Assembly: GCA_002425225.1 (NCBI GenBank)
Contig: DILV01000007.1
Coordinates: 1 to 64,000 of the forward strand
Reading direction: 5' to 3'
Source of the DNA: Thiothrix sp. UBA5583
GTDB lineage: Bacteria; Pseudomonadota; Gammaproteobacteria; Thiotrichales; Thiotrichaceae
Length of the DNA: 64,000 bases
Shown one piece after another: positions 31,119 to 34,827 of the stretch. A model generated the notes under the pieces. That model did not search any database. It saw nothing but the letters and a program-made list of their open reading frames with translations, and was not told where the DNA came from. Within the stretch, counting starts at the first letter, position 1, and each line of letters starts with the position of its first letter. The translations under genes were made by a program, and so were the position numbers.

Positions 31119-33116
31119 TTAATCGCCTAGTAAATCCTTGAGGTTGGCGATGTAAGCCTGTGCAGTCGCTTGCCGTTCCTCATCTGATACCACTTTCTTG
31201 TTTTCCCATTCCAGATGTTCCGGCGGTAGTTCATCAAGGAAACGGCTGGGTTCAACCGTGGATGACTCCCCGTAGCGTGAACGTACCTTGGCGTAGCTGA
31301 TGGTGAGATGTTTCTGCGCACGAGTAATGCCGACGTAAGCTAGCCGCCGTTCTTCTTGGATGCCGTGATCATCGAGGCTGTTGGCGTGGGGTAGCAGCTC
31401 CTCTTCCATGCCGACCAAAAACACGTTGGGGAATTCCAGCCCTTTGGCGGCGTGCAGGGTCATCAGGGTGACGGCATCCTGTTCCTGCTCTTCGCTGTTG
31501 CGCTCCAGCATGTCAACCAGGCTCATGTGGGCGATAATGTCGCTCAGGGTTTCCTTGCCAGCGCCGTCGTCGTGCAGTTTGCGTACCCATTCGACGATTT
31601 CCCACACATTCTTCATCCGCGCTTCGGCCTGTTTGGGGGTATTGCAGGTATTTTTCAGCCAGTCTTCGTAAGCAATGTCGGTGATGACCTGGCGGACGAT
31701 TTTGGTCGGGTCAGCGCCTTCGGTAGAACGCACCATTTCATGCAGCCAGAAGCTGAAGGTTTCTACCCGCTGCTGGGCTTTGGCGGAAACACGCTGGGCG
31801 AAACCGAGTTCCTGCGCAGCGGCGAACAGGCTGCTGTGGCGCTCAAAGGCGTATTCGCCGAGCTTTTCCAGCGTGGAGGTGCCAATTTCGCGTTTGGGGG
31901 TGTTGATGATGCGCAGGAAGGCGGCGTCATCGTCAGGATTGGCGATCAGGCGCAGGTAGGCGAGGATGTCCTTGACTTCAGAGCGCTCGAAAAACGAGGT
32001 TCCGCCGGTCAGTTTGTAGGGGATGTTGTTTTCGCGCAGGGCTTTTTCAAACAAGCGGCTCTGGTGATTGCTGCGGTAGAGGATGGCGAAATCCTTGCAG
32101 GCGGCGCGGTCGCGGAAACGTTTTTTGAGGATTTCACCGACGACTTTCTCGGCTTCATTGTCCGGGGTGCGGCAAGGCATGACGCGGATCGGGTCGCCTT
32201 CGCCGAGCGTGCTCCACAGGTTCTTGCTGAACAGGTGTGGGTTGTTGCCAATCAGCTTGTTGGCACTGTTGAGGATGCGGCTGGTGGAACGGTAGTTCTG
32301 TTCCAGCATCACCACCTTGAGCATCGGATAATCACGCTGGAGCTGGATGATGTTTTCCGGGCGTGCACCGCGCCAGGCGTAGATCGACTGGTCGTCGTCG
32401 CCTACTGCGGTGAGTGCGCCGCGCATTCCTGACAACAGGCGGATCAGTTTGTACTGGCAGGCGTTGGTATCCTGATATTCGTCCACCAGCAGGTAGCGCA
32501 GCTTGTTTTGCCAGTGTTGCAGGGCGTCGGGGTGTTGCTCGAACAATTGTACCGGCAGCACGATCAGGTCGTCGAAATCGACCGCATTATAGGCTTTGAT
32601 CTGCCGTTGATATTTTTCGTACAAAATGGCGGCGAGTTTTTCGTCCGGCGTATTGGCTTGCAGGGCGGCTTGCTCGACGGAAATGAAGTCGTTTTTCCAG
32701 CGCGAAATGATCCAGCGCAGGTTGTCAGCTTCCTCCACGTCCTCCTTGTGTGCCAACTCTTTCAGGATTGCGCCGCTGTCTTGCGCGTCGAGGATGCTGA
32801 AATTGCTCTTGTAGCCCAGCCGTTTGGCTTCGCGCTTGATGATGTTCAAGCCTAGCGTGTGGAAGGTGGAAACTGTCAGACCTTTGGCCTCTTCCTTGCT
32901 CAACAGTTTGCTGGCACGTTCACGCATTTCGCGGGCGGCCTTGTTGGTGAAGGTGATCGCAGCAATCTGGTCAGCGGAATGCACGCCCTTGCGGATCATC
33001 CAGGCAATTTTCTGGGTGATAACGCGGGTTTTGCCGCTGCCAGCGCCTGCTAGTACCAATAGGGGCGTGCCGAGGTGGGTGACCGCCTCTTGTTGTTGGG
33101 GGTTGAGTCCTTGCAT
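31119..33116 (-). CDS. rep: ATP-dependent DNA helicase Rep
   Basis: A 665-aa superfamily 1A helicase that aligns by eye along its whole length with E. coli Rep (673 aa). Motifs seen are LAGAGSGKTRVITQKIAW (Walker A), TVSTFHTLGLNIIKREAKRL, LLVDEYQDTNACQYKL (motif II), VGDDDQSIYAWRGARPENI (motif III), LEQNYRSTSRIL (motif IV) and TLHAAKGLEFPNVFLVGM (motif V). The VGITRAQKHL motif VI is also present. Rep moves 3'-5' on ssDNA and clears proteins ahead of replication forks. The ATG at 33116 lies one base after the TAA of the upstream TOPRIM gene, so translation is probably coupled to it. The frame can be read up to 33185, but that part lies inside the TOPRIM gene and is not Rep-like. Confidence 0.95.
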   Translation of the reverse strand: MQGLNPQQQEAVTHLGTPLLVLAGAGSGKTRVITQKIAWMIRKGVHSADQIAAITFTNKAAREMRERASKLLSKEEAKGLTVSTFHTLGLNIIKREAKRLGYKSNFSILDAQDSGAILKELAHKEDVEEADNLRWIISRWKNDFISVEQAALQANTPDEKLAAILYEKYQRQIKAYNAVDFDDLIVLPVQLFEQHPDALQHWQNKLRYLLVDEYQDTNACQYKLIRLLSGMRGALTAVGDDDQSIYAWRGARPENIIQLQRDYPMLKVVMLEQNYRSTSRILNSANKLIGNNPHLFSKNLWSTLGEGDPIRVMPCRTPDNEAEKVVGEILKKRFRDRAACKDFAILYRSNHQSRLFEKALRENNIPYKLTGGTSFFERSEVKDILAYLRLIANPDDDAAFLRIINTPKREIGTSTLEKLGEYAFERHSSLFAAAQELGFAQRVSAKAQQRVETFSFWLHEMVRSTEGADPTKIVRQVITDIAYEDWLKNTCNTPKQAEARMKNVWEIVEWVRKLHDDGAGKETLSDIIAHMSLVDMLERNSEEQEQDAVTLMTLHAAKGLEFPNVFLVGMEEELLPHANSLDDHGIQEERRLAYVGITRAQKHLTISYAKVRSRYGESSTVEPSRFLDELPPEHLEWENKKVVSDEERQATAQAYIANLKDLLGD

Positions 33117-33117
33117 G

Positions 33118-33798
33118 TTATTGGAAGACTTGTTGGAGCCAGTGGGTGAAGGCGGAAAGTGCAGCAGATTCATTGGCGAAAACACCGGCTTGGTAGGCTT
33201 TGCCTGCGGATGTACCGGGTTTCTTTTGCCATGCCAGCAGGGTGGAAAGGCGGGCTTTGGAAAGGTGTGTGTCTTTGAAGGTACGCAGTTCGCCTAATCC
33301 ACTAATGGCTTCGTCGGCTTTAGCCAGTAGTGATTGTTGCGTGGTATTGTTTAAATTGCCGAGCAATAAATCTTCCAGCATTCCATCATCACGGTGGGTT
33401 GGCATTATCCATAAGCCGACAGGCGTATATTCATCTGGGTGAGTGAAAATCTCCCCCTTTACTATCTTCTCTGGAAGTTGAGGGATGTCATAGCCATAGT
33501 CACGTAACACGCTAGTGATCTGCTCCCTGCGTTTGGCAAAACCATAACCTTGTTCTTGAGCGTCTGCATCAGCTATTACCGCAATCCGGGTGATTCTTCC
33601 TTCTTCTTGTATACGTTTTAGGGCAATAGGTAATGCACGTGTTCTGAGTACATCAATGCCGTCACTTTCTGTTTGACAGAAATCTTTTGGTGTTTCTGGT
33701 TCAATATTGACAGATAGTTTAAGTTGGCAAATGACTTTCTGGAAAAAATCCCGGTCATCTTGGCCCTCAACCAACAAAATTCGTTGTTCAGCCGACAT
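33118..33798 (-). CDS. DUF3226 TOPRIM-like protein (putative defence nuclease subunit)
   Basis: The 226-aa protein has the TOPRIM-type pattern of DUF3226: ILLVEGQDDRDFFQKVI near residue 8 (metal-binding Glu) and AVIADADAQEQGYGF near residue 75 (DxD). It also has the conserved late segments VGLWIMPTHRDDGMLEDLLL and HLSKARLSTLLAWQ. DUF3226 and DUF4435 TOPRIM proteins are found beside OLD-type ATPases; in the PARIS defence system AriB (DUF4435) is the toxic subunit. The ATG at 33798 shares a base with the TAA of the ATPase gene, so the pair is coupled. Composition is more A+T-rich than rep. The role in defence is inferred from family and context. Confidence 0.8.
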   Translation of the reverse strand: MSAEQRILLVEGQDDRDFFQKVICQLKLSVNIEPETPKDFCQTESDGIDVLRTRALPIALKRIQEEGRITRIAVIADADAQEQGYGFAKRREQITSVLRDYGYDIPQLPEKIVKGEIFTHPDEYTPVGLWIMPTHRDDGMLEDLLLGNLNNTTQQSLLAKADEAISGLGELRTFKDTHLSKARLSTLLAWQKKPGTSAGKAYQAGVFANESAALSAFTHWLQQVFQ

Positions 33799-34745
33799 TA
33801 GCGAATCTCCGTCCGCGTGTTGACGATCCACTCCAGTTCTTCTTCGTTATATACATGTGAAATGATTCTTCCCCGATTTGTTTTTCCGGCATTTTTGCCT
33901 AATGTGATGAGCTTGCCTTCTACCTCTTTGTTTGCAACAGCAACTTTAGCAAATGCTTCTAATGTATCTCGGCTATGTGTTGTTGCAAATATCTGAATAT
34001 CAAGCTCTTTTGCTAGCTTGAAAAGCTTTTCCCATACTTCTTCCTGAATCGAGTAGTGTAAGCCATTCTCGAATTCGTCGATCATCAAGTAGCCGCCACG
34101 GGCTTGAAAGGCATGAAGAAAAAGTTGTAGCAAGCGGCTCATACCTTCCCCCATGCTTTTTATAGGGCGTGCTTTACGTTCTTTTGCAAGAGAAACCATT
34201 GTAATTCGGTTTGTTGTGTAGAAAACATTCTCAACTTTGGAGTCAACTAATTGTAATGCTTCAGATGCAAGATTGTCTTGTTTGTGAATTCTAATATCAT
34301 CCCATATCTCTGCCATATCTTTGTCTGGTTTTATGCATGTGTCGATGCTAGAGAAAGGGTAATTGTGGCTATTAATTCTGTTCTGAAACGCTTGCGGGAA
34401 GTTATCGGGAAGTTGCAATGAGTCATCAAAAACATGATGCCGTTTCTCACTGAAATGGAATCCTAATGTTTGTGTTTTGTTTCCTACGAAAATTCCTTCA
34501 GGTGATATGGAACCATTAAAATAAATGCTTTCTAATTTTAGTTGGTTACTGTAAGACTCATTCCGTTTGTTTAGAATATCCAGTAAAGCAGCTTCTCTGC
34601 CATGTTGGGCAAATGCTATTACAGCTTCCAGCAACGTGCTCTTCCCACTATTATTCTTCCCTACAATCAGATTCACCCTTCCCAGCGAGGGGATAGTTAA
34701 ATCTTCAAAGCAGCGGAAATTCTTGATGTGCAGGCTGTCGAGCAT
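33798..34745 (-). CDS. OLD/AriA-like AAA ATPase (putative defence sensor)
   Basis: A 315-aa ABC/SMC-type AAA ATPase. Its order of motifs is MLDSLHIKNFRCFEDLTI at the N-terminus, LIVGKNNSGKSTLLEAVIAF (Walker A), MGEGMSRLLQLFLHAF (signature), GGYLMIDEFENGLHYSIQ (Walker B and D-loop), and IFATTHSRDTLEAF (H-loop). This is the pattern of OLD-family and AAA_15/AAA_21 proteins. No fused TOPRIM domain is present; it is encoded by the next gene. The start at 34745 begins the canonical N-terminus. The gene is clearly A+T-richer than flanking genes, which suggests recent transfer. It is divergent from the thioredoxin-like gene. Confidence 0.85.
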   Translation of the reverse strand: MLDSLHIKNFRCFEDLTIPSLGRVNLIVGKNNSGKSTLLEAVIAFAQHGREAALLDILNKRNESYSNQLKLESIYFNGSISPEGIFVGNKTQTLGFHFSEKRHHVFDDSLQLPDNFPQAFQNRINSHNYPFSSIDTCIKPDKDMAEIWDDIRIHKQDNLASEALQLVDSKVENVFYTTNRITMVSLAKERKARPIKSMGEGMSRLLQLFLHAFQARGGYLMIDEFENGLHYSIQEEVWEKLFKLAKELDIQIFATTHSRDTLEAFAKVAVANKEVEGKLITLGKNAGKTNRGRIISHVYNEEELEWIVNTRTEIR

Positions 34746-34827
34746 GTTTCTTGTCCTTCGTCCATAAGTCCCCAAACTATAGCAGTTTCGTGCAAGGGCG
34801 GTAACGGGTGCGTGTATAATGCCCACC

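Follow-up and report, generated by a model that had tools for sequence, protein, structure and literature searches.

A PARIS-like ATPase-TOPRIM gene pair ahead of rep in Thiothrix as a candidate immune locus exchanged in blocks

We analysed a 64,000-nucleotide (nt) stretch of Thiothrix sp. UBA5583 (positions 1 to 64,000 of contig DILV01000007.1, assembly GCA_002425225.1; hereafter the window), in which an ATPase gene and a TOPRIM gene stand directly ahead of the helicase gene rep. The original prediction had read these three genes as a possible hybrid of two defence systems: PARIS, in which a separate ATPase (AriA) pairs with a DUF4435 TOPRIM protein (AriB), and Gabija, in which a fused OLD-type ATPase-TOPRIM protein (GajA) works with a UvrD-type helicase (GajB). 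Comparison of related genomes suggests, with a rough probability of 0.6, that the two genes form a PARIS-like immune cassette which in Thiothrix resides ahead of rep, an AriA/AriB-like sensor and nuclease whose sensor centre is swapped among strains at a constant core position; rather than a Gabija hybrid, the locus would be an immune locus that is modular, anchored at a core gene and subject to exchange. By its profile matches the gene pair itself is ordinary, a member of the known candidate family PDC-M38. The unusual point is its life in Thiothrix, where it stands before rep in 12 of 16 genomes, leaves remnants and is exchanged in blocks.

Residence of the gene pair ahead of rep

The locus comprises the following features (aa, amino acids).

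33798..34745, minus strand: ABC-type (OLD/AriA-like) ATPase gene, 315 aa, PDC-M38A (gene call, family profiles)
33118..33798, minus strand: DUF3226 TOPRIM gene, 226 aa, PDC-M38B, proposed nuclease effector (gene call, profiles, conserved residues)
31119..33116, minus strand: rep, a helicase gene of 665 aa that follows the cassette, probably as a bystander (gene call, Rep profile)
34176..34610, minus strand: hypervariable ATPase centre (residues 46-190), proposed sensor (11 types in 12 genomes)
34701..34745, minus strand: codons 1-15 of the ATPase gene, its conserved 5' end (nucleotide identity against control windows)
33121..33291, minus strand: 3' tail of the TOPRIM gene (codons 170-226), separately exchanged in some genomes (comparison of G012 and G013)
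34746..34818, minus strand: region between a divergent thioredoxin-like gene and the ATPase gene (contains the extended -10-like TGCTATAGT at 34776-34784)

The genus sample comprised 16 genomes, the window's own included. All of them have rep, and a gene similar to the window's TOPRIM gene is present in 12, in every case directly upstream of rep, with the TOPRIM stop and the rep start within a few bases of each other or overlapping. This spread contradicts the view, which the original prediction had raised as an objection to itself, that the pair is a one-off insertion at rep. The four genomes from which the pair is missing (G003, where the surroundings are different, G007, G008 and G009) all retain rep. 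The end of a TOPRIM gene is found just before rep in G008, matching that of G012 at 22 of 24 nt, and in a genome of another genus of the family (G058) a 66-aa open reading frame (ORF; L047 2013-2213), the stop of which overlaps the rep ATG, consists of the ATPase start and the TOPRIM end. In those lineages, the pair was therefore present at rep before being deleted. G058 is the one genome with traces of the pair among 30 rep loci from other genera of the family, and we do not propose an ancestral seat at rep for the family as a whole; in Leucothrix (G043), the pair lies away from rep, which is on another contig. A quick tree built from 72 TOPRIM proteins, with 11 Thiothrix rows (G005 was left out), placed the Thiothrix rows and Leucothrix together in one group, a shared allele pool.

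Two further observations concern genomes of this sample. An unrelated, A+T-richer ORF of 339 aa (L031 8158-9177), with no Pfam match, occupies the same rep site in G009, where the thioredoxin-like gene was matched in part only. Additionally, second, more distant DUF3226 genes were located away from rep by a hidden Markov model search (G013:C2:4099208-4099867 and G004:C8:509570-510064).

In the window, the ATPase, TOPRIM and rep genes run head to tail on the minus strand. The ATPase/TOPRIM junction reads TAATG, with the TOPRIM start sitting in the ATPase stop codon, and the TOPRIM/rep junction reads TAACATG, with rep starting 1 base past the TOPRIM stop; coordinates, strand and both junctions agree with the original prediction. 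Its picture of a cassette ahead of the core gene rep is borne out by the gene order, an operon-like row, and so is the split of ATPase and TOPRIM as in PARIS: the two are separate genes, and the 315-aa ATPase has no TOPRIM match. The pair is also A+T-richer than rep, as had been claimed, the G+C content being about 0.39-0.44 over most of the pair, and up to 0.51 at the TOPRIM 3' end, against 0.54-0.59 in rep. An extended -10-like TGCTATA(G/A)T was recognised by eye in all 12 carriers and in G008; its copy in the window was not listed by a consensus scan, which also demands a -35 hexamer.

The window ATPase matches the Pfam families AAA_15 (108.7 bits) and AAA_21 (77.5 bits), the TOPRIM protein matches DUF3226 (167.1 bits, its sole Pfam match at E<=0.1), and Rep scores 987 bits with the NCBIfam model TIGR01074 (cut-off 951). 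PDC-M38A and PDC-M38B are the best PADLOC models for the window's two proteins, and they were matched by 13/13 ATPases and 72/72 TOPRIM proteins scanned, sets that had been gathered beforehand by similarity. Residues G29, N31, G34, K35, G199, G201, D223, E224 and H257, which we take to belong to the ABC motifs, are invariant in 71 ATPase sequences. The original prediction had made itself dependent on a TOPRIM metal site; the TOPRIM acidic residues are conserved, E11 and D77 being invariant and D79 and E142 at least 90% conserved in 72 sequences. AlphaFold models of the two proteins are confident (mean pLDDT, the predicted local distance difference test, 90.5 and 92.6), and the Foldseek matches listed for the ATPase model include PtuA, OLD, Rad50/SMC and GajA. 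PHROGs and phage records gave no match for the window TOPRIM protein. DUF3226-like matches were seen on eight plasmid records, six of them from Acinetobacter and most below 41 kb, so the family also has a mobile form.

Block exchange and the variable ATPase centre

Between the sister genomes G005 and G006, identity is 97.4% upstream, 55.2% in a block that runs from about -843 up to the rep start (position 0) and 98.2% in rep; the two have the same ATPase centre and a different ATPase end and TOPRIM. Between G012 and G013, the ATPase middle (about -1715 to -1043) is 43.5% identical, the next stretch 96.8%, the tail 70.4% and rep 96.3%, so that the TOPRIM tail has changed separately from the ATPase middle; the upstream stretch stands at 0.812 owing to an end gap, and at 88-100% in 60-base windows. 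Similarly, the whole cassette is 52.3% identical between G001 and G015 (rep 96.2%), and in the less closely related G014 and G013 (rep 91.1%) the block extends from about -1484 to -179. A model with one low-identity block gained 447-615 log units for G005/G006, G012/G013 and G001/G015, compared with 6-19 within rep of the same pairs. Assembly error is made less likely by the small number of contigs, one to four, in several of the genomes.

The distant genomes G005 and G015 are 85.3% identical in the ATPase end and TOPRIM, against 79.2% in rep and 66.9% upstream, so modules have moved between species. The rep tree groups G005 with G006, and G005 with G015 is rejected (approximately unbiased test, p-AU 2.6e-5); the tree of the ATPase end and TOPRIM groups G005 with G015, and G005 with G006 is rejected (p-AU 2.4e-5). 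Switching of the cassette from silent donor copies was rejected because no such copy was seen in the own genome (next ATPase match E=0.008). A single copy of the 36-base ATPase 5' end is present per carrier (12 of 12), and none in the other four genus genomes.

Among the 12 carriers, identity is 0.93-1.00 in ATPase residues 1-30, 0.63-1.00 in residues 191-257, 0.26-0.99 in TOPRIM residues 1-112 and 0.88-1.00 in rep. For ATPase residues 46-190, the 12 genomes show 11 types, with a median identity of 0.15 when gaps are counted and 0.21 without them. At the nucleotide level, ATPase codons 1-15 are 0.953 identical with the start codon and 0.925 from codon 2, the latter being the fair comparison with 84 equally protein-conserved windows of three core genes (best 0.921, median 0.864); DNA conservation at the 5' end is thus at the top of the controls and little beyond them. 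The variable centre would be the sensor of the cassette.

The constant-variable-constant ATPase recurs at a second address. In five loci, four from Methylobacter (and one from Methylococcaceae), the pair lies between hisG and hisD (L054, L056, L063, L065 and L060), with the called hisD start 4-20 nt past the TOPRIM stop; hisG and hisD were named by profile in L056 and by similarity in the other loci. Across the five, the ATPases are 0.95 identical in residues 1-30, down to 0.24 in the centre and 0.84-0.91 in residues 271-390, and hisG is 0.88-1.00 identical. The likeness to the rep site lies in the variable centre; the sharp swaps described above are those at rep.

Proposed mechanism, alternatives and the place of rep

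In the mechanism that we propose, the AriA-like ABC ATPase would keep the AriB-like TOPRIM protein inactive, and a phage product recognised by the variable ATPase centre would release the TOPRIM nuclease, which would stop the cell, perhaps via tRNA cutting. Owing to the fixed site and the conserved gene ends, DNA from related strains could enter by recombination and take the place of the centre, of the ATPase end together with TOPRIM, or of the whole cassette; each replacement would alter what is sensed, and rep would stay put. More tentatively, the locus might serve strain-level receptor exchange, as a core-anchored immune operon in which homologous recombination at conserved ends could swap the sensor centre, the effector and the tail independently, giving a population many phage-trigger specificities at one address, like major histocompatibility complex or plant R-gene loci, with the same logic at the Methylobacter-type hisG-hisD site. 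The proposal singles out the stretch of a PARIS-like ATPase in which phage specificity may be set. Sister Thiothrix genomes form a natural test set, some differing in ATPase centre and TOPRIM tail and others in ATPase end and TOPRIM alone.

Several results weigh against reading the pair as an exchanging PARIS-like cassette. The genus sample has one genome per species, and the groups put to the approximately unbiased test were picked after the identities were seen. Decoupling from rep is incomplete, as TOPRIM identities correlate weakly with those of rep (Mantel rho 0.38 and 0.49, p 0.036 and 0.037). The agreement between rep and glyA is itself poor (rho 0.21, p 0.068), so recombination or noise affects core genes as well. 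The variable centre may reflect loose constraint. For the TOPRIM model, Foldseek returned no match at E<=0.001 (AriB at rank 7, E=0.097), and the TOPRIM sequence profile gave E=0.66 with AriB. AriA was absent among the 50 Foldseek matches listed for the ATPase model; the ATPase profile reached AriA at E=2e-7 when built from 13 sequences, and did not list it at 1e-6 when built from 71. PDC-M38 is only a PADLOC candidate, and no text on it or on DUF3226 was found in the literature searched with a few terms.

An alternative in which accessory alleles are simply replaced at a chromosomal hotspot, with a loosely constrained centre that has no role in specificity, would suit the unrelated ORF at the same spot in G009, the low identity and length changes of the ATPase centre, and the disagreement of core genes among themselves. 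We consider it unlikely, given the sharp edges inside genes, with conserved parts flanking the replaced centre in G012 and G013, and the same constant-variable-constant pattern between hisG and hisD. A selfish toxin-antitoxin-like pair, in which the ATPase restrains a toxic TOPRIM nuclease and which persists by addiction and by its core-operon seat, with defence a side effect or absent, would explain the tight coupling of the two genes, the relatives on small plasmids and the antitoxin label of AriA in solved entries. Loss of the pair from several Thiothrix genomes makes this improbable, as does the finding that deletion of either PARIS gene was not toxic (PMC9122126).

For the immune cassette proposed here, rep is probably only a neighbour. 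Of 140 loci in a scan of genome contigs, the best 80 were kept; all five from Thiothrix have rep, and in the 75 from elsewhere no rep-like gene was detected in the fetched flanks (tblastn, 1e-4), some of which are short (at least 2.1 kb downstream in 60 of 74 checked loci). The original prediction's question whether rep is always next to the pair in relatives is thus answered yes within Thiothrix (12/12) and no in these outside flanks, and the Gabija/PARIS hybrid with Rep as helicase partner is rejected. That rep is a working partner in Thiothrix, a housekeeping helicase recruited as GajB serves GajA, would fit the constant upstream position of the pair and the close or overlapping junction, but is very improbable in view of the 0/75 outside loci, the 4/16 genus genomes with rep and no pair, the separate location of pair and rep in Leucothrix and the score of Rep as a housekeeping equivalog. 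The Thiothrix case shows an immune-like cassette persisting beside a core gene across the span of a genus, so a helicase neighbourhood is weak evidence of partnership.

Across loci, rep is one of many neighbours of the pair. An ATPase match was found in 78 of the 80 loci, the TOPRIM gene being at the contig end in the other two (L078 and L103), and in all 67 non-Thiothrix loci where both could be delimited, TOPRIM starts between -52 and +23 nt from the ATPase stop. A same-strand ORF starts within 200 bp downstream of TOPRIM in 33 of 74 non-Thiothrix loci. Nineteen of these 33 were scanned, chosen by eye and mostly for their core-gene look (the other 14 include four hisD loci), and 11 were above the NCBIfam cut-off, namely thiC, recA, a PRK10985 hydrolase, trpD, thyA, dapD (two loci), glyS, phytoene desaturase, coaE and hisD; upstream hisG also passed. 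Five DUF3226 loci taken from an even sample of the class have no recognisable core gene close behind on the same strand. Because of the selection by eye and these five loci, we claim no enrichment of core-gene operons as a general home of the pair; random insertion would often give the same picture. One of 15 DUF4435 loci (L236, G053) has its PARIS-type pair flanked by ORFs that look by eye like pdxJ and acpS; core embedding is therefore not special to DUF3226.

Comparison with known systems

With AbiL, the locus shares an ATPase that scores 183.7 bits with the AbiLi model; it differs in that AbiLii is not among the eight families listed for the window TOPRIM protein. Gabija likewise has an OLD-type ATPase and a TOPRIM, and a UvrD/Rep-family gene stands next door in Thiothrix. 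However, ATPase and TOPRIM are two genes here and one protein in GajA, and in place of a constant helicase there is a housekeeping Rep, unlinked outside Thiothrix (0/75 fetched flanks).

The closest likeness by profile is to PDC-M38, the A and B models of which are matched by both window proteins. We infer from the model names that its rule is adjacent PDC-M38A and PDC-M38B genes, and the two genes are adjacent in the window; for the Thiothrix pair, we describe here its constant seat before rep and its exchange in blocks.

Like PARIS, the locus has a separate AAA_15 ATPase gene followed by a TOPRIM gene. The PARIS rule, as given in PMC9122126, combines an AAA_15 or AAA_21 ATPase (above 32 or 27 bits) with DUF4435 (PF14491, above 27 bits). 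The window ATPase exceeds both ATPase values; the TOPRIM protein carries DUF3226 instead of DUF4435 and scores 18.4 bits with the AriB model, and the ATPase has 315 aa against 464 aa in solved AriA. In PARIS, sensing is done by the ATPase hexamer, and phage triggers such as Ocr free the TOPRIM protein, which is a tRNase (PMC12409363, PMC11455837). This scheme may be carried over to the Thiothrix pair by organisation and family, not by membership.

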